Origin: Terriglobia bacterium
GTDB lineage: Bacteria; Acidobacteriota; Terriglobia; Terriglobales; Acidobacteriaceae
DNA length: 49,991 nucleotides
Assembly (NCBI GenBank): GCA_032252755.1
Contig: JAVUPY010000037.1
Span: 1 to 49,991, forward strand
Direction of reading: 5' to 3'
The translations under genes and the position numbers were made by a program. Shown piece after piece: positions 30,997 through 47,457 of this stretch; positions within the stretch are counted from its first letter, which is position 1; every line of letters starts with the position of its first letter. The notes below the pieces were generated by a model. It did no database searches and had not been told where the DNA came from. It saw nothing but the letters and a program-made list of their open reading frames with translations.

Positions 30997-32673
30997 CTAT
31001 TCGCAAGGGAAGAAGAGGGAGAAGACGGTGCCGGTGTGTCCGGGCGTGGTGCTGCTCTTGAGCGAGAAGCGGCCTTTGTTTTTGCGGATAAATTCGGCGG
31101 TGATCCAAAGCCCAAGACCATTTCCCTTCTCTTTTTTCGTACTGAAGAAGGGTTCGAAGATCTGTTTGCGGATTTCACGGCTCATGCCATGCCCGGTGTC
31201 GGCGACGGTGATGCGAAGGCCTTTAATGCCGCCATTCATCCAATCTCGGCGGAGATTGGCGCGGACGATGAGGCGGCCGCCGTTGGGCATCGCGTCAATG
31301 GCGTTGGTGACGATGTTGGCGACGACCTGGCGGACTTCGCTGGCATAGCAACGAATGGGGCGGAGTTCGCCTAACTGCACGGTAAGAGAGATATTTCTCC
31401 CGCTGATCTGCTTCGAGAGAAGGTTAACGACCGCGTCGACGATGGCGCCGACGTCGACGAGCTCACGCTGGTTCGAGTAGCGGTAGAAGGTCAGCGTCTG
31501 GCGTGTGATTTCGCCGATGCGGGCGAGTTCGCGCTGGGCGGTTTGCCCATACTCGCGGATGCCGGGTTCTTTCGAGGTGGTTGCGATCAGATAGACGAGG
31601 TTGGTGACACCCTCGAGCGGATTGTTGATGTCGTGCGCGATGGTGCCAGCGAGTTTTCCGGCAATGGCGAACTTCTCGGCGTTTTGCAGAGCGTGCTGAA
31701 GAGCGGCCTGCTCCTGGATGTCGGTGCACGTCGCGACCCATTCCAGGAGGTCTCCCTGAGCACCGAGAACTGGCACCACGCGCCACTGAACGAGGCAGTA
31801 GGAGCCATCAGCGCGATGCAACCGGAACTGGCACTCGACGCCGCGACGGCTCTGAATCGCCTCCGACCAGATGCGCTGCACGTCTTCGCGATCGCCGGGA
31901 TGAACGGAATCGAGCCAACCGGAGCCCACGTACTCGCCTGGAGCCTGACCGGTGAAGGCTTCCCAATCATGCTGATGATTGCGTGCGCCACCTTCGGCGT
32001 CGGCAAGCCAGACCAGCGATGAAGAGGCAAGTACCAACGATCGGTAACGTTGCTCGCTCTTCGAGAGCGCCTGTGTTACCTGCGTTAGAGTTGCGAGGTG
32101 ATCGCGGATTTCATACTGGCGCGCGCGCGCGCGCAGGGCAGACCCGGCGGCACTGACGAGAGTGACTGGGCGAATGGGACGCTCGAGGAGCGAGACGTTG
32201 CCAAGAACGCCGCGATTGCGCGCAGCTCGCAGGCTTCGGCTATCGCTGGCACCGCCGCCGGTGAGCACGATGATAGGGAGATCGGACCACGCTGGCTGTG
32301 CAGCGAGGGTCTTTGCGAGCGTGGAGATTCCGGCCGGCATCAAGGCCTCTTCGGCGACAATCACGGTGCCGACGCCATGCTTCATCCGCGTGCAAAGCTC
32401 GATGAGCGAGTTGCACACTTTGACCCGGATTCCGGCGAGATTGAGTTCGCGGCCAATCAGGAAACCGTCCACCCCGGCAGGAGCGAGAACCAGGACACGA
32501 CTTTCGAGGGTCCGGGACTCTACCGGACTAGTCGGCTGCTGCGTCTCGGGCTGTTCCACCAAGAAAAGTCGGGGTTCCGGCGAGGACTCCCTGGAAGTTC
32601 CTGAGGGGCTCGCCGACTCGGATTCCGTTCGATCCCAACTGAAGTTCGCGGATTGTGCGTTCGTGTCGTCCAC
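30997..32673 (-). CDS. Receiver-like/PAS sensor histidine kinase
   Basis: The protein has 558 residues from a GTG at 32673. A receiver-like domain spans about 58-185 (ESRVLVLAPAG..IVAEEAL) but the phospho-acceptor Asp position reads Glu, so it may be a pseudo-receiver. A PAS domain follows (about 205-325: SLVLASSSLVWLADAEG, with a PAC end VATCTDIQEQ). Then come a HisKA domain with His346 in IAHDINNPLEGVTNLVY and an HATPase (NAIDAMPNGGRL, GHGMS, KGNGLGLW). No membrane helix is present, so it is cytoplasmic. It overlaps the upstream KaiC-like gene by 146 nt in another frame; a later GTG at 32559 would cut this to 32 nt. No response regulator is adjacent. Confidence 0.88.
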   Translation of the reverse strand: MDDTNAQSANFSWDRTESESASPSGTSRESSPEPRLFLVEQPETQQPTSPVESRTLESRVLVLAPAGVDGFLIGRELNLAGIRVKVCNSLIELCTRMKHGVGTVIVAEEALMPAGISTLAKTLAAQPAWSDLPIIVLTGGGASDSRSLRAARNRGVLGNVSLLERPIRPVTLVSAAGSALRARARQYEIRDHLATLTQVTQALSKSEQRYRSLVLASSSLVWLADAEGGARNHQHDWEAFTGQAPGEYVGSGWLDSVHPGDREDVQRIWSEAIQSRRGVECQFRLHRADGSYCLVQWRVVPVLGAQGDLLEWVATCTDIQEQAALQHALQNAEKFAIAGKLAGTIAHDINNPLEGVTNLVYLIATTSKEPGIREYGQTAQRELARIGEITRQTLTFYRYSNQRELVDVGAIVDAVVNLLSKQISGRNISLTVQLGELRPIRCYASEVRQVVANIVTNAIDAMPNGGRLIVRANLRRDWMNGGIKGLRITVADTGHGMSREIRKQIFEPFFSTKKEKGNGLGLWITAEFIRKNKGRFSLKSSTTPGHTGTVFSLFFPCE

Positions 32674-34386: not shown

Positions 34387-37300
34387 TTACTGCACGGTTG
34401 CAGTGACTGAGGTTCGGCTGGTTGGCGTGTTGTAGCCGGTCGGAGTTCCGACGTTCACGTGTGTCGTACCGACAGCGACAGCGTGGAAGGTCGCGCTGCC
34501 GGCAGACTGGCTCGAAGACAGAGTGACCGGCGTCGTGATGGTTCCCGCCGAGGTGTTGTCGCTTGACATCGGGACCTGGATGCTAATGCCGCCCCGTACC
34601 GGTTGCACGACGAGGAAGTTCGAATTGGCGTCAAGCAAGGCGGAGGCGACGCCAACCGGAGTATCGGACCCGGTGATGGCGTTGAAATCAGCCGAGGTAA
34701 TGATGAACCCGGACGGATTCACCGTGACGTTGATGGTCGTTGTGGCATAGCCGGTGGCAGTCACGGTCAGCGTGGTCGTACCCTGGCTGATGCCCTGGAT
34801 GTAGAAGTTTGGTGTGGTGCTGCTGATGCTGCTGAAGGTCACGGTTCCGGTGCCGGCGACGGTGGGATCGGTGCTGACGGTAGCGACTGAGGTGGAACTG
34901 CTGGCAATCGTCACATCAACCGGGGTTGTCGGTGTCGTGCTGAGTGTGACGGTGTTGGACTGTTGGAGGTCCTTGCCGACGGTGACCTGAGTGTTCGTAG
35001 TCAGGCCGGGTAGACCGACGGATGCGGTGATGCTGCCGTAGGTCATGGGCGTGCTGAAGCCTGCGGGGGCAACGGTCGCGAGCGTCGTTTCGCCATCGGC
35101 GAGAGCGTGGAATGTGGCGCTGCCCACCGATTGGTTGCTCGCGAACGCAACCGGCGTGGTGATGGTGCCCACAGCCGTGTTGCTGCTGGTAAGGCCGACG
35201 GACGCGCTGACGCCACCACGCAGCGGTTGCAGGCCGATGTAGTTAAGCGTCGTTGAGTCGAGCACGGCGGGAGCGATATTGACCGTCTTCGTGTCGTTCA
35301 CATTCGCGTTGAAGCTCCCGGTATCCATGATGAATCCGGATGGATTAACAGTGACGTGAATGGTGGTGTCGGCATAGCCAGGCGCGCTAACCGTGAGCGT
35401 GGTCGAGCCGATGCTGATGCCCTGGATATAGAAGTTGGGCGTGCTTCCTGTGATGTTGTTGAAGGTCAACGAACCGGTGCCGGCGGACGCCGGATCAGTG
35501 CTGAGGACGGCGACCGCAGTGGAGTTGCTGGTCACGGTGACCGCGACAGGACTGGCCGGCGCCGTGTTCAGCGTAACCGTGTTCGGCTGTTGCAGATCCT
35601 TGCCGATCGTGAACGCGGTCTTGGTGGTCATGCCGGGCAGCCCGACATTCGCCGTGATGGATTGATATTGCGTCGGCGTACTGAAGCCGGACGGGGTCTG
35701 GATGGCGACGGTGGTGGTTCCACCCGAGACTGGATGGAAAGTCGAGGTCGCGCTCGCGACGTTCGCAGCAAAGCTGATCGGACTGGTTACAGTCGCGACG
35801 CCGGTGTTCGAACTGGTGATTCCGAGATTGACAGGAGCAGCGCCGGGACGAACCCCCTGCGACGTCCCGGTCGGAACCAGGGAGCTGTTGAGAACCGCAG
35901 TCGCAAGGGTGACAGTGCTGTCTCCAGTGGAGCCGCTGTTGATGCCTGAGTTGACGATGACGAACCCGGACGGCGCGAGTGTGATCGTTGTCGTGCCGTC
36001 GGTAAGGTTAGTCCCGCTGGCCGTGAGGGTAACGGTGCCGCTGGAAGCGAGAGCCTGAACATAGAACTGCGGTAACCCTCGCGTCCCACCATTGACGTGA
36101 ACCGTGGTAGTGGCTGCGCCCGCCGTTACAGGATCGGACGAGACCACGACCTTGGACGGATCGGAACTGGTGATGGTTACGTCAACGCCGTCGGGACTTG
36201 GTGCTGGGTCACCGAGATAGATCGTGTCAACGCCCTGGAGGTCTTTGCCAACCGTGAGCGGGTTCATGGTGACAGTGGCGTTGCCAACATTGACCTTCAT
36301 CACCTGGAAATTCGCGGGCGTGGTGAAGCCGCTCGGTTCGGTGACGGTGATGTTGGTGGTCCCGGTGGCGAGGGGGTGGAAGGTCAGCGTGGCATACGGT
36401 GTTCCGGCGCCGAGAGAGATGGAACTCGTACTGATGGTGCCGACGGTCTTATCGGAATTGGTTAGCTTGATCGTCTGCGAACTCATGCCCCCGCGCAGGG
36501 TTTCCGTCCCGAGAACGTTCTTAGTGGTTGGATCCAAGTATGCGGGCAATACGGTGAGCGTGGAGTCAGCGGCAAAGACCGAGGTATTGAGCGTGTCAGA
36601 CGTGCCGTTTCGGATGATAAAGCCGGAAGGCGCGAGCGTGACCGTCGCGGTCGTGTCGAGATAACCCGAGGCCTTGATGGTCAGCGTCGCCGTACCGGTA
36701 TCGGTTAGAGCCTGCACGAAGAATGAGGGGCTGGTCTTGGAACCGGCGGCGGCGGTCACCTTAACGGTGTCGCTCCCCTTCGCTGTGGCACTGTTCGAGA
36801 GCAGGATTTTCGAGGTGTCAGTGGTCGTGACCGTGATGTCGGTGGATGCGCCAGTGACGACGCCGAAGGTTACGGCGGCGGAGCCTTGCAGGTCCTTGCC
36901 AACGGTGATGTTGGGAACAGTCATGCTGTTCACCGTTACATTAACGGTGACTGACCCTGTCGTGTAGCCGCTGGCGGTCCCTGTAATGGTGGTGGATCCG
37001 GCGGCCGAAACCGAGGTGACTGTCACCGACGTGGTGGACGAACCCGATGACACTGTGACGCTTGCGGGAACCGTAGCAACACTGGTGTTGCTGCTGGTCA
37101 GGTTGACCGTGACTCCACCGGAACCAGCGGTTTGTCCGAGAGTCAAGATGAGGGTTGCCGTGGAATTGCCGTTCATGTCGAGCGGCGAAGGCGAAAAGCT
37201 GATATTGGTATTCGGGCCAACCGTGATGTTGACGGTGTCCGGCGTCGAGGTCAGGAGGCCATCGCTGACAACCAGTTCAACGGTGTAGGTGCCCTGAAGG

Positions 37301-40300
37301 TCAGCTGCAAAAGTTGGCTTCGAGGTGGTTGCACCGGCGAGCGTTGCAGTGGAACCGTTGGGGATCGACGTGAAGCGCCACTGATATGTCAGCCCGTACC
37401 CATCGGGATCAGTGGAACCGGTGCCGTCCAGCGTGACCGTGGAGCCGACGCTCGGCGATTGATCTGGCCCTGCATTTGCGACCGGCGCACGGTTCGACGA
37501 AGTGATGATGACAGTTCGCGGAGCACTGTCGCTATGGCCATCGTTGACGATCACCTGTGCGATGTAGGTGCCCCGCTTGTCGAGCGTGAAAGACGGCGTT
37601 TGCGAGGTGGGATCGTTGAGCGCAGCGGTGCTGCCCAATGGCAGCCCGATCAAAGACCACTTGTAAGTCAGCGAGTAGCCTTCGGGGCTGCTGGAGCCAC
37701 TCGCGTCGAGGTTGGCCGCGGAGCCTACATTCACGCTCTGGTTGCTTCCGGCGCTGGCCGATGGCGGCGCGTAAACCGTGCTCACGAGAACGGTGGCGGG
37801 CGCGCTGGTGACGATTCCGTTGGAGACAAAGAGTTCGGCGACGTAATCGCCCGCAATATCGGCAGTGAAGCTGGGCTTCTGCCCAGTGGAACTGCTGAGC
37901 GCGGCGGTGCTGCCGGCGGGTTTGGAGACGAGGGCCCAGGCGTAGCTGAGCGTGCCGCCGCCGGGATCGAAGGAACCGCTGCCGTCAAGTTGAACGGCGC
38001 CGCCCACGGTCGCGTGCTGCGGCTTTCCAGCATTGGCGATCGGGGCCACAGGCGAGGTCGAAATTGTGACGGTTGAGGCCGAACTGTAGAAGTGTCCGTC
38101 GTTGACCATCAACTGGGCGACGTAGTCACCGGCTTTGTCGGCGACGAAAACCGGGTTGGGTACAGTCGGATCGGAAAGGACGGCCGCGCTGCCGGCAGGC
38201 TTGCTGAGTAGCGCCCAATAGAACTGCAGCGCGTTGCCATCAACGTCGGTGGAACCGGAGCCATCGAGTTGAACAGTCGCGCCAGCGGCGACGGTCTGGC
38301 CGGGTCCAGCGTTGGCGACGGGGGCGGAGTTCGTGGTGCTGATGGTGACCGTCGAAGGCGCACTGTTCGCGGTGCCGTCGTTGACAATCAACTGCGCGAC
38401 GTAGGTTCCGGCGACGTCCGCGGTGAACGAGGGCTGAACCGAAGCTGCAGATGAAAGAGTCGCAGTGCTTCCGGAGGGACGCGCGATGAGCGCCCAGCGA
38501 TAGGAGAGCGCGTTGCCGTTGGCGTCGGTGGAAGCGCTGCCGTCGAGCAGAACGTCGGAACCCGTTGTAACTGTGCGATCACGGCCTGCCGACGCGACAG
38601 GCGGAGTGTTCACCGTGCTGACGGTCATGGTCGAAGCAACGCTATTGACCGTGCCGTCATTGACGATCAACTGGACTAGATAAGTTCCGGCCTTGTCGGC
38701 AACGAAAGTCGGCCGTATGGAATTCGCGTTCGAAAGTCCGGCGCTGCTGCCGGCGGGAGCGCTCGTGATCGCCCACGAATATGTCAGCGGATCGCCTTCA
38801 AAGTCACTTGAAGCGCTGCCGTCGAGATGCGCGGTGGCGCCGACTTGCACGGCCTGGTTACGTCCGGCGTTGGCGATGGGCGCGGAATTTGAAGTGTCGA
38901 TGTAGACGCGCGAGATGTGGCTGTCAACAATGCCATCGTTGACAATCAGGTCCGCCTGGTAGGTTCCAGCTTTGTCCACCACGAATGTCGGTTGCGGGCT
39001 GGTAGTGCTGGAAAGAGCCGCCGAGCTGCCGGAGGGACTGACCAGCGTCCATTTGTAGGTCAGGTGATTGCCGTCGAAGTCGGTTGAATGCGTGCCGTCG
39101 AGTTGGATGGTCACGCCGATCTTGGCAGTCTGGTTGAAGCCGGCGTTTGCGACCGGCATGGAATTGACGGTGCTGATGGTCACAATCGCAGGAGCACTGG
39201 TGGCCGTCCCATTCCTCACAACGAGTTGGACAAGATAGTTCCCTGCTACGTCGGCGACGAAGCTCGGCGTTGGAGAGCTTGCATTCGAGAGAGTCGCGGT
39301 GCTGCCGCTGGGAGCCGATGCCATCGTCCACTGGAAAGTCAGCGGAGATCCATTGCCATCGCTGGAGCCGTAGCCGCTGAGATTCACAGTCGAGCCAACG
39401 GCGACGGTCTCATCGAGACCGGCATTAGCGACCGGGGGCTGGTTCGCGGGGCGCGTGACAATGTTCAGCTGAACTGGGTTTGAAGTCCCGCCCTGCGGAG
39501 CTGAATTAACGACGGTGACGGCGGGCGTTCCGACGGAAGCAAGATCGGCCGCGGTAATGCTTGCGGTCAGTTGCGATGAACTGATGAAGACGGTAGTGCG
39601 GCTGGAACCACCGAGTTGGACGGTTGAGTTGGGAAGGAAGTGACTGCCGTTAACGGTTAGCGTGATGTCTCCGGAGCCGGCATAAACCGTCGTCGGATTG
39701 ATGCCGGTGAGGACCGGCACAGGAGCATTGATGAGGAAGTTCTGCGCAGTGGAGGTTCCACTGCTTCCCGTCGTGACGGTGATCGGTACAGAGGCCGACG
39801 ACGCGACGAGCGAAGCCGGGATATCAGCGTTGAGCTGACTGCTGTCGAGGTACGTGGTGGAAATTGCGTTGCCGTTCCAGTTGATCGTCGAAGTCGGGTT
39901 GAACCCGGAACCGGTAACGGTGAGCACAAAGCCGGCGCTGCCCGCAGTCACATTGCCGGGGTTCAGCGAAGAAATGGTTGGAGCGGCAGACGAAACAGTG
40001 AAGTTGACGGAATTAGACGTGCGGCCGCCATCCGTGACCGTAACTCCAAAGGTACCGGCGGTAGTAAGAGACGATGCCGGGATTGTTGCGCTCACCTGGG
40101 TCGGGCTCGTGTAGGTTGTCGTGAGCGCCGTCCCATTGAAGTTGACGACAGAACTCTTGGTAAAGTTCGCCCCCGTAACTGTAATTGTGGTCGCCTGCGA
40201 GCCTACGGTGACCTTGGAAACGGAAAGGGAGGCAATGCTGGGCGCGCCACCCGAGCCGGAGCTTTTGCCGCAGCCGGAGATGAAGGCAAGAAGAACGAGA

Positions 40301-40335
40301 ATGACACCCAGAAGAGCGGTACGACGGTAGAGCAT
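34387..40335 (-). CDS. Giant modular surface lipoprotein with IPT, PKD-like and Ig-like repeats
   Basis: The 1982-residue protein starts with a lipoprotein signal (lipobox AFISGC, Cys22), with GGGAGGATT just before the ATG. Modules in order: three IPT/TIG domains (about 30-295), eight PKD/REJ-like domains of about 93 residues (about 300-1040), each opening like ANAGPDQSPSVGSTVTLDGT and ending VNDG....VTIST, and one Ig-like domain (about 1045-1130). Four long repeats of about 210 residues to the end each hold VGKDLQ, a PSGFII-type motif and two Ig-like sandwiches. There is no enzyme domain or C-terminal sorting signal. The role is probably adhesion or structure at the cell surface, tethered by lipid. 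It is Thr/Ser/Gly rich, has very few Cys and is a single gene. Confidence 0.85.
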   Translation of the reverse strand: MLYRRTALLGVILVLLAFISGCGKSSGSGGAPSIASLSVSKVTVGSQATTITVTGANFTKSSVVNFNGTALTTTYTSPTQVSATIPASSLTTAGTFGVTVTDGGRTSNSVNFTVSSAAPTISSLNPGNVTAGSAGFVLTVTGSGFNPTSTINWNGNAISTTYLDSSQLNADIPASLVASSASVPITVTTGSSGTSTAQNFLINAPVPVLTGINPTTVYAGSGDITLTVNGSHFLPNSTVQLGGSSRTTVFISSSQLTASITAADLASVGTPAVTVVNSAPQGGTSNPVQLNIVTRPANQPPVANAGLDETVAVGSTVNLSGYGSSDGNGSPLTFQWTMASAPSGSTATLSNASSPTPSFVADVAGNYLVQLVVRNGTATSAPAIVTISTVNSMPVANAGFNQTAKIGVTIQLDGTHSTDFDGNHLTYKWTLVSPSGSSAALSSTTSPQPTFVVDKAGTYQADLIVNDGIVDSHISRVYIDTSNSAPIANAGRNQAVQVGATAHLDGSASSDFEGDPLTYSWAITSAPAGSSAGLSNANSIRPTFVADKAGTYLVQLIVNDGTVNSVASTMTVSTVNTPPVASAGRDRTVTTGSDVLLDGSASTDANGNALSYRWALIARPSGSTATLSSAASVQPSFTADVAGTYVAQLIVNDGTANSAPSTVTISTTNSAPVANAGPGQTVAAGATVQLDGSGSTDVDGNALQFYWALLSKPAGSAAVLSDPTVPNPVFVADKAGDYVAQLMVNDGHFYSSASTVTISTSPVAPIANAGKPQHATVGGAVQLDGSGSFDPGGGTLSYAWALVSKPAGSTAALSSSTGQKPSFTADIAGDYVAELFVSNGIVTSAPATVLVSTVYAPPSASAGSNQSVNVGSAANLDASGSSSPEGYSLTYKWSLIGLPLGSTAALNDPTSQTPSFTLDKRGTYIAQVIVNDGHSDSAPRTVIITSSNRAPVANAGPDQSPSVGSTVTLDGTGSTDPDGYGLTYQWRFTSIPNGSTATLAGATTSKPTFAADLQGTYTVELVVSDGLLTSTPDTVNITVGPNTNISFSPSPLDMNGNSTATLILTLGQTAGSGGVTVNLTSSNTSVATVPASVTVSSGSSTTSVTVTSVSAAGSTTITGTASGYTTGSVTVNVTVNSMTVPNITVGKDLQGSAAVTFGVVTGASTDITVTTTDTSKILLSNSATAKGSDTVKVTAAAGSKTSPSFFVQALTDTGTATLTIKASGYLDTTATVTLAPSGFIIRNGTSDTLNTSVFAADSTLTVLPAYLDPTTKNVLGTETLRGGMSSQTIKLTNSDKTVGTISTSSISLGAGTPYATLTFHPLATGTTNITVTEPSGFTTPANFQVMKVNVGNATVTMNPLTVGKDLQGVDTIYLGDPAPSPDGVDVTITSSDPSKVVVSSDPVTAGAATTTVHVNGGTRGLPQFYVQALASSGTVTLTASGTNLTDGTTTITLAPSGFVIVNSGINSGSTGDSTVTLATAVLNSSLVPTGTSQGVRPGAAPVNLGITSSNTGVATVTSPISFAANVASATSTFHPVSGGTTTVAIQTPSGFSTPTQYQSITANVGLPGMTTKTAFTIGKDLQQPNTVTLNTAPASPVAVTVTSNSTAVAVLSTDPASAGTGSLTFNNITGSTPNFYIQGISIGSTTLTVSAPGYADTTIHVTVNPSGFIMDTGSFNANVNDTKTVNIAPAVLDSTTLNYIGLQPLRGGVSASVGLTSSNTAVGTITTPVAFASNQSVGSATFHALADGETTLATVAPAGFSTPMTYGSITASVGLPGLTTNTQVTVGKDLQQSNTVTLSTTPTTPVDVTIASSSTSVATVSTDPTVAGTGTVTFSSISSTTPNFYIQGISQGTTTLTVTATGYATTTINVTVNPSGFIITSADFNAITGSDTPVGVASALLDANSNFLVVQPVRGGISIQVPMSSDNTSAGTITTPVTLSSSQSAGSATFHAVAVGTTHVNVGTPTGYNTPTSRTSVTATVQ

Positions 40336-40918: not shown

Positions 40919-42568
40919 CTACTTCCCTTTCATATTGCGATAACGCCGGATTAGCGCATTGGTTGAGCTGTCGTGCTTCAGTGGCGGTTCTTGGGCGGCG
41001 GCGAGTTCGGGATAGATGTTTTTCGCGAGCACTTTGCCCAGTTCGACGCCCCACTGATCGAAGGAATCGATGCACCACACCATGCCTTGAGTAAAGACGC
41101 TGTGCTCATAGAGGGCGACAAGTTTGCCGAGCGTGGTCGGTGTGAGGCGTTCGGTGAGGATGACGTTCGACGGGCGGTTGCCCTCGAAGGTGCGGTGCGG
41201 AACGAGCCAGTCGGGCGTGCCTTCGGCTTTGACCTGGTCCGGCGTTTTGCCGAAGGCGAGCGCTTCGGCCTGCGCGAAGATGTTGGCCATCAACAGGTCA
41301 TGGTGTTCCCCGAGCGGGTTGAGCGATTGTGCGAAGCCGATGAAGTCGCACGGAATAAGGCGCGTGCCCTGGTGAATGAGCTGGTAGAACGAGTGCTGCC
41401 CGTTGGTGCCCGGCTCTCCCCAATAGATCGCTCCGGTTTCGTACGTGACGCGGGCGCCGCCCCGGGTGACGTGCTTGCCATTACTCTCCATCGTTAATTG
41501 CTGCAAGTAAGCGGGGAAACGCTTGAGGTACTGGTCGTACGGGAGGACCGCGACTGTCTCAGAGCCGAAGAAATCGCTGTACCAGACCGCGAGCAGGCCC
41601 ATGATCGCCGGGAGATTGCGCTCGAAAGGCGTCGTTCGGAAGTGCTCATCGATTTCGTGCGCGCCCGCCAGCATGGCGCGGAAGTTTTCCGGGCCAATGG
41701 CAATCATCGTCGAAAGGCCGATAGCCGACATCATGGAGTACCGCCCGCCGACCCAATCCCAGAATCCGAACATGTTCGCCGTGTCGATACCGAACTTTGA
41801 GACTTCGGCGGCGTTGGTGGAGACGGCGACGAAATGCTTCGCGACGGCCTTCTCGCCGCCGAGTTTGGCTAACGACCATTGTTTCGCGGTCTGGGCGTTG
41901 GTCATCGTCTCGAGCGTGGTGAAGGTTTTCGACGAGATGATGAAGAGTGTCTCTTCGGGATCGAGTCCGTGGGTGGCTTCGGCGAAGTCGGTGCCGTCGA
42001 TGTTCGAGATGAAGCGGAAGTTGAGGTCGCGCTTGCTGTAATGGCGGAGAGCTTCGTAGGCCATGACGGGGCCAAGGTCGGAGCCGCCGATACCGATGTT
42101 GATCACGTTGCGGATGCGCTTGCCGCTGAAACCACGCCACTCGCCGTTGCGGATGCTCTCGGCGAATTTCGCCATGCGATCAAGGACTTCGTTGACTTCC
42201 TCTACGACGTTCTTGCCGTCGACGACGATGGATGCTCCGCGAGGCATGCGCAGGGCGACGTGAAGAACCGAACGATTCTCGCTGAAATTGATCTTGTCGC
42301 CGCGGAACATGGCGTCTATGCCCTCGCGGAGACCGCACTCATTCGCCAAAGCGACGAGCAGGCGCAAGGTTTTGTCCGTGACGCGGTTCTTGGAGTAATC
42401 GAGGAAGAGTCCGGCGGCCTCGGCCGTGAGATGCTCCCCGCGCTTGGGATCCTCGGCGAACAACTGGCGGAGAGTAACGTTCTTGACCTGTTCGAAATGA
42501 GAGCGGAGTGACTTCCATGCGGAAGTGTCGACAGGAGTTTGTAGTTGCAGGCCGGTCGGAGTGCTCAT
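40919..42568 (-). CDS. pgi: Glucose-6-phosphate isomerase
   Basis: The 549-residue protein interconverts glucose 6-phosphate and fructose 6-phosphate in glycolysis and gluconeogenesis. Family signatures are present: [19 protein letters not shown] near 151-169, [14 protein letters not shown] near 208-221, [15 protein letters not shown] near 267-281, [11 protein letters not shown] near 354-364 with the catalytic-base Glu, and [18 protein letters not shown] near 382-399. Length and order fit the bacterial and eukaryotic long form. The ATG at 42568 is the natural start. It is a single gene; the next gene upstream is divergent. No unusual residues were noticed. Confidence 0.96.
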
Positions 42569-42986: not shown

Positions 42987-45035
42987 ATGCGTCTGCTCGT
43001 GAACTGTCGTCAATTTACGGTTCTGGTGCTCGTGCTCGGGAGCATCATTCCCTGTCGTGCGGCCAATGCCACGCAGAACGATCAACAGACCGCAAAAGAA
43101 TTGAAGCAACTCTCGCTCGAGCAACTCTCAAACATCGAAATCACAACCACGAGCAAGGGGCCGACCAATGCGTTTCGCGCGCCGGCCGCGGTCTACGTCA
43201 TTACAGCCGAGGACATACGTCGGGCCGGGGTGAGCACTATTCCGGACGCGTTGCGTCTTGCGCCTGGGGTTGAGGTCGCACAGATCGACAGTAACAAATG
43301 GGCGATCGGCATTCGCGGCTTTGGAAGCAGGCTGTCGCGCTCAGTGCTGGTTTTGATCGATGGGCGCACGGTTTACACCACTCTGCTGGCTGGAACTTAC
43401 TGGGAAGTCCAGGACACCTTGCTATCGGACATCGATCGAATCGAGGTGATTCGCGGTCCCGGGGGGACCATCTGGGGCCCGAACGCAGTTAACGGCGTTA
43501 TCAACATCATTACGAAGAGCGCCAGCGAGACACATGGGACGCGCGTAGAAGTCGGCGGCGGTAACGTCCAGCAAGGGTTTGCGAATTTCCGCTACGGCGG
43601 CGCAACGAAGGGCGGTTTCAACTACCGGGTCTACGGCAAGTGGTTTACGCGGGGACCGATGTATCACCCGGATGGCCGGAACTTCGACGACTGGCGTGGT
43701 GGGCAGGGTGGCTTCCGCACGGACTGGAACAATGGAGAAAAGAACCACTTCACGGTACAGGGAGATTTGTACAAGCAGGAAGACGGCGAGAGCGTGGTCG
43801 CGACGAGTTACACAGCTCCATTCTCCCGGATAATCGATGCCAACGCGCATCTCTCTGGAGGCAACATCCTCGGGAGGTGGACGCACGGTATTTCTGACGG
43901 CAACGACATCCAGGTGCAGGCATATTACGACCGCACGAACCGGCACGAACCCAATTTTGGGGATGTTAGAGACACTTTCGACGTCGATTACGTTCAACAC
44001 GCGCGAATAACGCGGAATGACTTTACGTTCGGATTCGGCGCGCGCTTCAGCCGCGGCAATGATCTCCAGGTGGTCTCGGGTCTGACCTTCAGCCCGGCAA
44101 AGAGAACCGACGCCCTCATTACGGGGTTTATCCAGGATGAGTTCGCGATTGTGCCGCAGCGGCTGTCGCTGACTATCGGGACGAAACTGTTGCACACGAA
44201 TTTTACTGAGTTCGAGCCCGAACCCAGCGCTCGGCTGCTATGGACGCCAAATGACAAAATGACGTTCTGGGCCGCGGCGACGCAAGCGGTGCGAACACCA
44301 TCAGACGCCGAGCACGACTTCTACCTTTCGGGCTTTCTTGGGCTCGCCCCTGACGGAACGCCCTTCTTCGCGCGCTTCAATGCGAACAAGGACTTCCGCC
44401 CGGAACACATGAATGGGTTCGAGTTGGGCTACCGGCAACTTATAAGCAAAAAGCTCTTTGTCGATGTCGCAAGTTTCTATAACCACTACAGCGATTTATT
44501 CAGCGAGGACATCACGGGGGGACCCTACCTGGAGACCACGCCGCAGCCGACGCACTACCTTCTGCCTGCGGAGTTTGGCAACGGCCTAATGGGGAATACG
44601 AAAGGGTTTGAAGTTTCGCCCGAGTGGCGTCCGACGAACTTCTTCCGGCTTCGCGGGTCCTATTCGTACCTGCACATGAGTATCGCGAGGTCGCCGAACT
44701 CGATAGACATCGGCACGGCGCCGCAGATTATGGGCTCCAGCCCACAGCACCAGGTCACCGCGACGTCTTCGTTTGATCTGCCCTCGGCCTTCTTGCTCGA
44801 TCTCGACTTTCGTTTCGTCAGTTCCCTTCCCGCCCAGAAAGTGCCTGCCTATTCGACGGCCGACGCTCGGTTTTCGAAGCAATTTGACAACGGATTTCGG
44901 ATTGCACTCGTCGGACGTAATCTGCTTCAGCCGCATCATCTAGAGTTCGGGACAGACCCGGGAGCGACAGCCAACGACATCACCCTGGTCGGGATCCGGC
45001 GAAGCGCCTATATCGAGCTGAGTTGGGTGCACTGA
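42987..45035 (+). CDS. TonB-dependent outer membrane receptor
   Basis: The 682-residue protein has a signal peptide (MRLLVNCRQFTVLVLVLGS, cleavage near RAANA) and then the segment LKQLSLEQLSNIEITTTSKG, typical of receptors linked to signalling. The plug domain covers about 50-170, with IRGFGSRLS, LIDGRTVY, IDRIEVIRGPGGTIWG and AVNGVINIITK. The rest is a 22-strand barrel with repeated aromatic motifs, ending IELSWVH. It would bind an outer ligand and use TonB energy; the substrate is unknown. The stop overlaps the next gene (TGATG), so it is translationally coupled to the DUF4154 protein. A structured leader precedes it. Confidence 0.9.
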   Translation: MRLLVNCRQFTVLVLVLGSIIPCRAANATQNDQQTAKELKQLSLEQLSNIEITTTSKGPTNAFRAPAAVYVITAEDIRRAGVSTIPDALRLAPGVEVAQIDSNKWAIGIRGFGSRLSRSVLVLIDGRTVYTTLLAGTYWEVQDTLLSDIDRIEVIRGPGGTIWGPNAVNGVINIITKSASETHGTRVEVGGGNVQQGFANFRYGGATKGGFNYRVYGKWFTRGPMYHPDGRNFDDWRGGQGGFRTDWNNGEKNHFTVQGDLYKQEDGESVVATSYTAPFSRIIDANAHLSGGNILGRWTHGISDGNDIQVQAYYDRTNRHEPNFGDVRDTFDVDYVQHARITRNDFTFGFGARFSRGNDLQVVSGLTFSPAKRTDALITGFIQDEFAIVPQRLSLTIGTKLLHTNFTEFEPEPSARLLWTPNDKMTFWAAATQAVRTPSDAEHDFYLSGFLGLAPDGTPFFARFNANKDFRPEHMNGFELGYRQLISKKLFVDVASFYNHYSDLFSEDITGGPYLETTPQPTHYLLPAEFGNGLMGNTKGFEVSPEWRPTNFFRLRGSYSYLHMSIARSPNSIDIGTAPQIMGSSPQHQVTATSSFDLPSAFLLDLDFRFVSSLPAQKVPAYSTADARFSKQFDNGFRIALVGRNLLQPHHLEFGTDPGATANDITLVGIRRSAYIELSWVH

Positions 45036-45637
45036 TGCGGGAGTCGAACCGAGTACGTGGGCCGCGCAAGATACTACGACGTGTGAATCGACTCGTAGTG
45101 CACGTTCTCCTTACGATCGCCCTTTTGGCCAATGGCGAACTCGCGCTGGATGGACAGCAGATCAGGCCCACGGAAGCCCAGTTGAAGGCTGCCTTCCTCT
45201 TCAATTTCGGAAAGTACGTCACTTGGCCGAGAATTACCGGAGACACCTTCTCGATCTGCCTCCTCGGGCAGGACCCTTTCGGGCCGGTACTCGATTCCAT
45301 TGTGGCCGGCGAAAAGCTGGGCGGGAAACCAGCGGATGTTCGGCGCATCCGAGGTGCTCAGGAGGCATCCACCTGCCAGATAGTTTTCATCAGTTCTTCC
45401 CAGGAAAGCCATTTGCAGTCGACGCTAGTGGAACTGGCGAAATATCCGGCCTTGACCGTGAGCGACATCCCTGACTTCGTCCGTCGCGGGGGCATGATCC
45501 AGTTCGTCGATGAAGACGACCGCGTGAGGTTCATCGTGAATCTCTCGGCCGCCCAGAAGGCTGGATTTGTGGTCAGTTCCGAGCTGTTAAAGGTAGCCAA
45601 GTACGTACAACGCGAAAGTGGACCGGGGGGTGTCTAG
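45035..45637 (+). CDS. YfiR/DUF4154 periplasmic signalling protein
   Basis: From the ATG at 45035, sharing one base with the receptor stop, the protein has 200 residues. A signal-anchor (about 20-37, LVVHVLLTIALLANGELA) is followed by the DUF4154 body: TEAQLKAAFLFNFGKYVTWP, FSICLLGQDPFGPVLD, STCQIVFISSSQ, PALTVSDIPDFVRRGGMIQF and RFIVNLSAAQKAGFVVSSEL. YfiR of this family sits in the periplasm and restrains the CHASE8 diguanylate cyclase YfiN. Here the downstream gene encodes a CHASE8-type histidine kinase, whose GTG start overlaps this stop by one base. A redox-active disulfide pair is not obvious. Confidence 0.88.
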   Translation: MRESNRVRGPRKILRRVNRLVVHVLLTIALLANGELALDGQQIRPTEAQLKAAFLFNFGKYVTWPRITGDTFSICLLGQDPFGPVLDSIVAGEKLGGKPADVRRIRGAQEASTCQIVFISSSQESHLQSTLVELAKYPALTVSDIPDFVRRGGMIQFVDEDDRVRFIVNLSAAQKAGFVVSSELLKVAKYVQRESGPGGV

Positions 45638-47457
45638 TGCGCCTCCAACCTTCCATTTCGCGAAAGCTCACTTGGCTCAACGTACTCGTCAGCGCCACGG
45701 CACTTGCAATTACCGCTATTGCTCTCATCGTCTACGACCAGTCGAGCTACCGGCGAATTCTCCTGGAGAACATCTCCGCACAGGCCGATGTAGTAGGCAG
45801 AAACAGTGTCTCGTCACTCGTATTCGCCGACCCCCAGACAGCGCGAAACACCTTGAGCGCACTGGATAGCGTCCCCAACATTCTCGCCGCCAGTCTCTTC
45901 ACCGCGGATGGGCACCTGTTTGCGTCCTACAGCAGGAGACCTGATCTGGCGATCACGGCCATGGGAACGCCGACGTCGACGGTGCAAGAGTACCCGGATC
46001 GAACGTTAGTTCTGACGCGGCAGTTACTTTCAGGCGATCAGGTCGTCGGTTACCTCACCATCAAAGCGGACGCTTCCCCTATACGGCAGAGGCTACGGAG
46101 TTACCTGATGATCGTCGGTGGCGTCTTGGGTCTGTCGCTGCTGGCGGCAATCCTCTTGTCATCGGCATTTCGCCGCGCGGTTGCACGACCAATTGTCGAA
46201 CTCGCAAACTCCGCGCGATTCGTGTCCAGGGAAAAGGATTATTCCGTCAGGGTGCCGGAGACGGGCACGGGCGACGAACTGTCCGTCCTGGTGGATGCGT
46301 TCAATGAGATGCTGTCCGGTATCCAGAGCCGGGATCTGGCGCTCGATTCCGAGCGCGCGCGCTTGAGAGCGGTGCTGGAGAGCGCTCCGATAGGGATCAT
46401 GGTGGTCGATCCAAAGTCGCAGAAGATAATTCTCTCCAACAGAACCATGGACGAGATTCTGCAGGAACCCGCAGGCTCGTTCGGAAAACCCGCTTTAAGT
46501 TGGAGCGCGATGCGACCGAATCGTGAGCCCGTGACTTTTGACGAACGACCCCTGATTCGCGCGCTTCGTGGAGAGGTCGTTACCGCAGAGGACTACATTC
46601 TCGTTCGCAGCGACGGCACGGAAACATGGGTGAGATCGAGCGCAGTACCGGTACGCGAAAAGGACGGTAATATCGCGGCAGGATTGGTGGCGGTGATCGG
46701 GATCGACGCACAGAAGAAAGCGCAGGAGGCACTGCTGCAGGCCGAAAAACTGGCGGCGGCAGGGCGGTTAGCGGCTTCGATTTCCCACGAGATCAATAAC
46801 CCGCTGGAGAGCGTGACCAATCTGCTTTACATTGCGCTCTCCCAGGATTCCCTCACACCCGAGGTGCGGCACCTTTTGACGCAGGCGGACCAGGAACTAT
46901 CGCGGGTCACGCACATTGCCACGCAGACTCTGCGTTTTTACCGGCAGTCGACGAATCCCACCTCGGTGGATATGGGCAATCTGATCGATTCGGTGCTGCA
47001 GTTACTCTCACCAAGGCTCCGCAATATGGAAGTCGAGGTAGGGAGAGAATACGGCGCGAAGACGCGTATCACCTGCTTCGAGGGCGAACTGCGGCAGGTT
47101 TTCACCAATCTGATCAGCAACGCAGTTGACGCAATGCCTAAAGCCGGAGGACGCCTCATTGCACGAACCAAGCAGGTTGGGAGTTCGAACGGAACAGGAC
47201 TGCAGGGCATACAAATCACGATCGCCGACAACGGACAAGGAATCCCGGCGGACCTGGAAAGCCGCATCTTCGAACCGTTCTATACGACCAAGGGAAATCG
47301 TGGCACGGGACTGGGGTTGTGGGTGACGAAGGAAATTATTGCAAAACATAAAGGAACCATTCGAGTCCGAAGCACGGTTGGACGTGGCACGGTATTCATG
47401 ATCGTGATTCCGTTTGCGATTGCCAAAGAAGACAGTCGGCTCGCCCAACTCGCATAG
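45637..47457 (+). CDS. CHASE8-HAMP-PAS sensor histidine kinase
   Basis: The 606-residue protein starts at a GTG overlapping the previous TAG. It has helix 1 (about 13-33) and a periplasmic CHASE8-like domain (about 35-150; ENISAQADVVGRNSVSSLVF, TADGHLFASYSR). Next are helix 2 (about 152-175), HAMP (about 175-230), PAS (about 245-360) and HisKA with His384 in ISHEINNPLESVTNLLY. An HATPase follows (NAVDAMPKAGGRL, DNGQG, GTGLGLW). The HisKA box is close to that of the kinase at 30997 (HDINNPLEGVTNL), so they are paralogues. It is the third gene of a coupled operon and likely reports the state of the periplasmic YfiR-like protein. No response regulator follows. Confidence 0.9.
   Translation: MRLQPSISRKLTWLNVLVSATALAITAIALIVYDQSSYRRILLENISAQADVVGRNSVSSLVFADPQTARNTLSALDSVPNILAASLFTADGHLFASYSRRPDLAITAMGTPTSTVQEYPDRTLVLTRQLLSGDQVVGYLTIKADASPIRQRLRSYLMIVGGVLGLSLLAAILLSSAFRRAVARPIVELANSARFVSREKDYSVRVPETGTGDELSVLVDAFNEMLSGIQSRDLALDSERARLRAVLESAPIGIMVVDPKSQKIILSNRTMDEILQEPAGSFGKPALSWSAMRPNREPVTFDERPLIRALRGEVVTAEDYILVRSDGTETWVRSSAVPVREKDGNIAAGLVAVIGIDAQKKAQEALLQAEKLAAAGRLAASISHEINNPLESVTNLLYIALSQDSLTPEVRHLLTQADQELSRVTHIATQTLRFYRQSTNPTSVDMGNLIDSVLQLLSPRLRNMEVEVGREYGAKTRITCFEGELRQVFTNLISNAVDAMPKAGGRLIARTKQVGSSNGTGLQGIQITIADNGQGIPADLESRIFEPFYTTKGNRGTGLGLWVTKEIIAKHKGTIRVRSTVGRGTVFMIVIPFAIAKEDSRLAQLA

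Follow-up and report, generated by a model that had tools for sequence, protein, structure and literature searches.

Do three overlapping genes, for a TonB-dependent receptor, a YfiR-like (DUF4154) protein and a sensor histidine kinase, form one signal system across the cell envelope, and at which of the three proteins would the signal enter? The genes lie at positions 42987 to 47457 of a stretch of 49,991 nucleotides from a Terriglobia bacterium (contig JAVUPY010000037.1, assembly GCA_032252755.1), here called the window. On balance, the best explanation is probably that the YfiR-like protein gates the kinase through its periplasmic CHASE8 domain, and that the receptor serves as the input in the place held by YfiB in the YfiBNR system. 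The gate by itself appears highly likely and the role of the receptor as input reasonably likely; direct capture of the YfiR-like protein by the receptor is a possible but less likely form of that input. The features concerned are:

42987..45035, plus strand: TonB-dependent receptor with plug and barrel (open reading frame (ORF) of 682 aa; Pfam, NCBIfam NF053590)
43110..43157, plus strand: conserved receptor N-terminal segment LSLEQLSNIEITTTSK (residues 42-57; TonB-box-like by sequence reading)
45035..45637, plus strand: YfiR-like periplasmic protein (DUF4154), with its ATG within the receptor stop codon
45637..47457, plus strand: sensor histidine kinase (606 aa), with its GTG start within the stop codon of the YfiR-like gene
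45751..46062, plus strand: CHASE8 periplasmic sensor domain (kinase residues 39-142; PF17152, 56.8 bits)
45811..45831, plus strand: SSLVFAD motif (kinase residues 59-65), aligned with AAVVFAD of E. coli K-12 YfiN
46168..46326, plus strand: HAMP domain (Pfam, 32.2 bits)
46360..46689, plus strand: cytoplasmic PAS domain (Pfam, 28.7 bits)
46762..47418, plus strand: HisKA and HATPase_c core (HisKA residues 376-437, 29.7 bits; HATPase_c residues 484-594, 88.8 bits)

The three ORFs are consecutive. At the first junction (TGATG, 45033-45037) the receptor stop codon TGA shares one base with an in-frame ATG, and at the second (TAGTG, 45635-45639) the stop codon TAG and the start codon GTG overlap by one base; the longest ORF of the YfiR-like gene (45023-45637, 204 aa) offers a TTG at 45023 as a possible earlier start. 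The receptor matches the Pfam plug (77.5 bits) and barrel (92.2 bits) models above their cut-offs, has a hydrophobic N-terminus resembling a signal peptide by sequence reading, and carries LSLEQLSNIEI at residues 42-52; no STN domain was matched on it by Pfam. Against NCBIfam NF053590 ("TOL_0244 family TonB-dependent receptor") it scores 584.7 bits over model positions 1-590 of 604, with a cut-off of 645, and it is a homologue of this equivalog rather than a formal member. The YfiR-like protein matches DUF4154 above the cut-off (156.4 bits, residues 53-193 of the longest ORF), passes NCBIfam NF053591 (134.9 bits, cut-off 125) and fails the YfiR model of NCBIfam (38.5 bits, cut-off 85). Every Pfam domain of the kinase exceeds its own cut-off, and NF053592 ("sensor histidine kinase, YfiR-like protein-associated", cut-off 194) is matched with 194.9 bits as a protein and 198.6 bits in the genome search; no receiver domain was found on the kinase. 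An earlier note on this DNA had read the locus as three genes in one direction with 1-nt overlaps, in the order of a receptor with an LSLEQLSNIEI-type N-terminal segment, a DUF4154 protein and a CHASE8-HAMP-PAS-HisKA-HATPase kinase, and all of this was confirmed, including the CHASE8 domain. Its view that the output is phosphotransfer agrees with the HisKA and HATPase_c matches and the absence of a GGDEF output from the kinase.

We surveyed DUF4154 loci in five samples: 297 genomes of the same phylum (68 with a DUF4154 match), 60 of the same family (24), 200 of the Pseudomonadota, the phylum of Caulobacter (50), 79 of the phylum of Desulfobulbus (11), and the genomes from which six named contigs come (6 of 6). 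The genus sample comprises only the genome of the window itself, with one DUF4154 match. By our own count there were 219 distinct places, 207 of which were examined with their surroundings, leaving out 12 whose matches were weak (E of 2.5e-7 or higher); the duplicate loci L002 and L005 had been removed before counting. Locus features were called with profiles grown from the window proteins (the GGDEF profile from motif-selected ORFs), and genes were taken as longest ORFs, so that overlaps may be overstated. On the same strand and within 2.5 kb, the DUF4154 gene is accompanied by a CHASE8 kinase at 152 of the 207 places, a CHASE8-GGDEF protein at 17, another or cut-off CHASE8 protein at 12 and none at 26; among the 182 places that lie 2.2 kb or more from the sequence ends, the kinase and GGDEF counts are 137 and 16. 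The kinase is present at 69/89 places in the same phylum and 48/67 in the Pseudomonadota. A co-directional receptor gene lies adjacent upstream (gap of at most 400 bases) at 122 places, adjacent downstream at 12 and within 3.5 kb at 20; at 11 more a receptor occurs within 6 kb on the other strand or farther off, and at the other 42 no receptor was seen within 6 kb. Both the kinase and a co-directional receptor occur at 115/207 places, and the same neighbors recur in all five samples. The gene order, with a TonB receptor as a frequent third partner, is thus conserved, as the reading of the earlier note required.

What follows the kinase core varies. A receiver domain is present on the kinase itself in 115/152 cases; the window kinase is among the 37 without one, some of which are cut by contig ends. 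When at least 1.2 kb of downstream sequence is available (34 receiver-less kinases), a co-directional receiver gene follows within 400 bases in 20, and the window belongs to the 13 with no recognized gene there; the receiver-domain profile found no response regulator in the whole 50-kb window. Because the next recognized gene carries a GGDEF or EAL domain in 11 of the 136 loci not at a sequence end, a minority of the kinase loci may still end in cyclic di-GMP. Among 107 usable trios, a co-directional ORF lies within 150 bases downstream in 62 and upstream in 57, with receiver domains in 35/61 scanned downstream neighbors compared with 7/56 scanned upstream ones (one ORF per side was left out of the scan, namely the downstream ORF of the window and L166:1-1962). 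No inner-membrane importer and no TonB/ExbBD occurred among the best 25 of 38 and the best 25 of 52 neighbor families. A YfiB-like gene within 4 kb was found at 1/126 kinase loci with a receptor, as against 3/9 GGDEF loci without one; a search of the window with a profile built on E. coli YfiB, of limited sensitivity, gave no YfiB-like ORF in the same direction within 4 kb. Relatives were present in 3 of 72,556 plasmid records.

Ten partner proteins were checked with Pfam, and the non-kinase types among them include two chemotaxis-type (methyl-accepting chemotaxis protein, MCP) outputs and one CHASE8-receiver-Hpt protein. The former (L089:8085-9965, plus strand; L247:4398-6317, minus strand) join CHASE8-HAMP to a methyl-accepting chemotaxis signaling domain beside DUF4154; the latter (L074:6233-7387, minus strand), with no kinase domain matched, stands beside both DUF4154 and a receptor. 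At four loci of the same phylum (L058, L059, L065 and L118), from genomes with several DUF4154 matches, DUF4154 is followed by a receptor with no CHASE8 partner nearby. A single DUF4154 ORF among the 207 also matches the kinase or GGDEF profiles: L209:4542-7136 (minus strand, 864 aa), from a Pseudomonadota genome with seven DUF4154 matches (G455), has DUF4154 at residues 50-189 (53.8 bits) followed by HisKA, HATPase_c and a receiver. This natural fusion of DUF4154 with a hybrid kinase is evidence that the two kinds of protein are functionally paired.

The receptor is linked to DUF4154 across genomes as well as within loci. In the family sample (receptor NF053590, E <=1e-90; kinase sensor NF053592, E <=1e-20), the receptor subfamily occurs in 16/24 DUF4154-positive and 0/36 negative genomes (Fisher 5e-9), and the kinase sensor family in 24 genomes, 21 of them with DUF4154 (Fisher 4e-10). 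In the Pseudomonadota, where the N-terminal and plug part of the receptor was used (E <=1e-25), the subfamily occurs in 38/50 positive and 1/150 negative genomes (Fisher 4e-29). These Fisher values overstate independence, as the sampled genomes are kin, and samples drawn repeatedly were taken to be the same genomes on the agreement of their listed handles. Because no Pseudomonadota score falls between 2.6e-41 and 1e-25, the scores suggest a discrete receptor subfamily. DUF4154 occurs without the subfamily in 8/24 family and 12/50 Pseudomonadota genomes, and five genomes of either group have a more distant receptor next to DUF4154 on the same strand. Where a genome is rich in receptors, scoring was limited to 17 or 18 candidates, so that absence there is less certain.

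We compared distance matrices by correlation (1000 permutations) over the 107 trios from 92 genomes, reduced to 98 by coverage and to 78 by removal of near-identical kinases. YfiR and CHASE8 co-vary with r 0.47, and still with 0.43 when receptor and kinase core are held constant, neither value being reached in any of the 1000 permutations. The correlation of YfiR with the kinase core is 0.07 (173/1000), and that of CHASE8 with the kinase core of its own polypeptide 0.14 (33/1000). Since YfiR tracks CHASE8 and hardly the kinase core, the pattern reads as an exchange of output domains while the periplasmic pair stayed together.

AAVVF of YfiN is, in the parts of two papers drawn on, a proposed YfiR-binding patch (PMC3375315; PMC4655355), and SSLVF of the window kinase is its predicted counterpart; F63 is kept in 99% and D65 in 96% of the 107 trios. 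On the other side, the YfiR surface concerned is described there as centred on F162 and the F151 pocket (PMC3375315; PMC4655355). The window equivalent of F162 is F170, kept in 88% of the trios (alignment with the E. coli K-12 proteins; P. aeruginosa residue numbers counted by hand). A structure model of the YfiR-like protein, built from seven sequences (predicted local distance difference test, pLDDT, 85.8), has YfiR crystal structures as its top matches (template modeling score, TM, 0.66-0.71), followed by the substrate-binding proteins 8wgl, 3lkv and 3lft, the last with L-Trp. For kinase residues 1-235, the model (pLDDT 75.3) best matches the periplasmic domains of WalK and LapD-type proteins, with CitA weaker; its CHASE8 part reaches a pLDDT of approximately 90 at residues 41-100 and 131-140, and 58-66 at residues 101-120.

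In the favored explanation, the trio would be a self-contained envelope signal system on the YfiR/YfiN principle, with a kinase as its output. The YfiR-like protein would bind the periplasmic CHASE8 domain at the SSLVF patch and set its state, HAMP and PAS would pass the change to the HisKA/HATPase core, and the kinase would phosphorylate a cognate response regulator encoded beyond the window. By analogy with YfiN, we infer that this control is repressive. The receptor would be the outer-membrane input rather than a target, and binding or transport of its ligand would alter the action of the YfiR-like protein on CHASE8, either through capture of that protein on the periplasmic face of the receptor or through hand-over of the ligand to it.

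As for the first version, a ligand-loaded receptor might expose its LSLEEL/NIEVTS-type segment and capture the YfiR-like protein through the hydrophobic pocket used by YfiB, whereupon YfiR would leave CHASE8 and the kinase would switch state; we put this forward tentatively. If it were true, the receptor would be dedicated to sensing and would not serve as an uptake gate, adding a further mode of TonB-receptor signaling in a design common in three sampled phyla. Receptor residue L47 is kept in 93% of 107 aligned receptors, and no LSLEQLSNIEITTTSK-type segment was found in the 140 residues inspected of two further receptors from this genome (L255 and L256). An LSLEQL-type segment is also carried by the receptor at L263, an orphan from a genome with no DUF4154 match, and because of this we rejected the segment as proof of contact with YfiR. 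The nearest solved receptor structures, the colicin I receptor and BtuB, were likewise rejected as a basis for naming the ligand, being too distant.

The second version also stands as an explanation of its own, in which the receptor does nothing but import a ligand that YfiR binds in the periplasm to switch the kinase. It predicts no receptor-YfiR complex, and as one of the two forms of input within the favored explanation it overlaps with that explanation in our confidence; by itself we regard it as possible, if improbable. The resemblance of the YfiR fold to part of a periplasmic binding protein fits such a role, as do the substrate-binding proteins among the next-best model matches and the weak co-variation of receptor and YfiR. 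The dissociation constants (Kd) of 35 and 77 mmol/L given in the literature portions drawn on speak against it, as does the lack of an inner-membrane importer among the best 25 neighbor families per side.

For receptor and YfiR, plain correlations of 0.26 and 0.27 (1 and 0 of 1000 permutations) were obtained, rising to 0.40 and 0.35 among 49 members of the same phylum, and CHASE8 correlates with the receptor plug at 0.22 (3/1000). Several observations weigh against the favored explanation. Given CHASE8 and kinase core, the receptor-YfiR values are 0.18 and 0.19 (18 and 2 of 1000), and given all other parts 0.00 (plug) and 0.09 (barrel), so the signal reads as joint inheritance, and any hint of a direct pairing with the receptor is weak at best. 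YfiR correlates with the kinase core at 0.54 in 17 Pseudomonadota members. No receptor lies within 6 kb at 26/152 kinase loci, and at 11 more the only one is on the other strand or more than 3.5 kb off. Three family and seven Pseudomonadota genomes have DUF4154 with neither the subfamily nor a close same-strand receptor, and in the Pseudomonadota genome G416 (locus L263), which has no DUF4154 match, a receptor exceeds the NF053590 cut-off. The L209 fusion has no CHASE8 match and is therefore silent on contact between YfiR and CHASE8. Against the passage of ligand occupancy through receptor, YfiR-like protein and kinase, a possibility raised by the earlier note, stands the weak receptor-YfiR co-variation once CHASE8 is accounted for. 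L263 is the one exception that we found to the rule that the receptor occurs with DUF4154; neither DUF4154 nor CHASE8 was matched in the 3.5 kb examined there.

Less probable still is that YfiR and kinase sense periplasmic redox state or stress, with the receptor gene merely co-expressed or regulated as a target. As far as the text of PMC3375315 drawn on here goes, YfiR of P. aeruginosa activates YfiN under reducing conditions independently of YfiB; the Cys71/Cys110 pair of that YfiR has a counterpart in the window (C79 and C118), and the kinase loci without a nearby receptor would suit this account. However, no more than 53/126 kinase loci with a receptor have Cys at the C71 position, and the redox pair is therefore not general. 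The Cys145/Cys152 pair has no counterpart in the window protein, and counterparts of both cysteines occur in 4/9 GGDEF loci without a receptor, 0/8 GGDEF loci with one and 0/152 kinase loci. A pure target would also not be expected to co-occur so tightly in two phyla and mainly in the form of a single subfamily. A chance neighborhood with no functional link is contradicted by the survey, given the 1-nt overlaps and the same neighbors in all five samples, and can be set aside.

The flanks of the trio consist of the following ORFs:

40919-42568, minus strand, 5' of the trio: ORF of 549 aa, glucose-6-phosphate isomerase by sequence reading only
3' of the trio, opposite (minus) strand: ORF of 149 aa with no NCBIfam match
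3' of the trio: ORF of 407 aa, flavin mononucleotide (FMN)-dependent-dehydrogenase-like, below the NCBIfam cut-offs shown

Promoter-like sites (3, shuffle mean 1.7) and terminator-like sites (4, shuffle mean 4.7) carry no information on the operon ends. Elsewhere in the window, 34387-40335 (minus strand) encodes a 1982-aa protein with Ig-like repeats by sequence reading and NCBIfam "choice-of-anchor Z" repeats (234.5 bits), and 30997-32673 (minus strand) is a second ORF that matches the kinase profile.

For comparison with YfiBNR we drew on parts of three papers (PMC3375315; PMC4655355; PMC4887326). As in YfiBNR of P. aeruginosa and yfiR-dgcN-yfiB of E. coli, a DUF4154 protein adjoins a CHASE8-HAMP membrane sensor in the window, and the AAVVF/SSLVF patch, the conserved YfiR Phe and the fit of the model to YfiR crystal structures are further likenesses; HmsCDE is a further system of this kind. 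The window differs in that its output is a HisKA/HATPase_c kinase and not a GGDEF diguanylate cyclase, its third partner is a TonB-dependent receptor and not YfiB, an OmpA/PAL-type lipoprotein, and its YfiR-like protein lacks the second cysteine pair and falls below the cut-off of the NCBIfam YfiR model. The earlier note had taken the kinase version for an unfamiliar exchange. This is not supported, as the text of Malone et al. (2012; PMC3375315) reports YfiN homologues with histidine-kinase, hybrid-kinase, GGDEF-EAL, Hpt and MCP outputs, and kinases form the majority in our survey (152/207). The divergent operons of that paper have the same YfiR/sensor pairing, in silico and nearly all without yfiB; the word "TonB" does not occur in its text, a statement that covers the main text and not Table S4, which lists the operons (PMC3375315).

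A kinase output behind a YfiR/YfiN sensor is thus not new, having been published in 2012 (PMC3375315) and being represented by three NCBIfam families. NF053590, NF053591 and NF053592 (TOL_0244 receptor, TOL_0243 YfiR-like protein and YfiR-associated kinase) describe the same three proteins under consecutive numbers, TOL_0243 and TOL_0244 being locus tags of Thalassolituus oleivorans; the YfiR-like protein and the kinase of the window pass their cut-offs, the receptor (584.7 vs. 645) does not, and the families offer names only. Among open-licence papers, most of them covered by title and abstract, there was no experiment on the trio, no account in which the receptor regularly appears as third partner, and no paper on TOL_0243. 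The window trio is an ordinary member of a recognized, apparently unstudied kind. That kind is widespread, with DUF4154 in 68/297 genomes of the same phylum and 50/200 of the Pseudomonadota, mostly with a CHASE8 kinase, and it alters the usual picture of YfiR, for which the well-studied diguanylate-cyclase version is a minority output (17/207).

TonB-dependent receptors are tied to cytoplasmic outputs in FecA/FpvA-type cell-surface signaling (STN, FecR and an extracytoplasmic function (ECF) sigma factor) and in SusCD-linked hybrid two-component systems. These two, STN/FecR/sigma factor and SusCD with hybrid kinases, are among the few routes known to carry information from such a receptor to the cytoplasm. 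The window receptor differs from both in having no STN match and in having a YfiR-like protein and a CHASE8 kinase as its neighbors. If it is the input, the trio would provide a path from ligand to phosphorylation over both membranes, in three genes.

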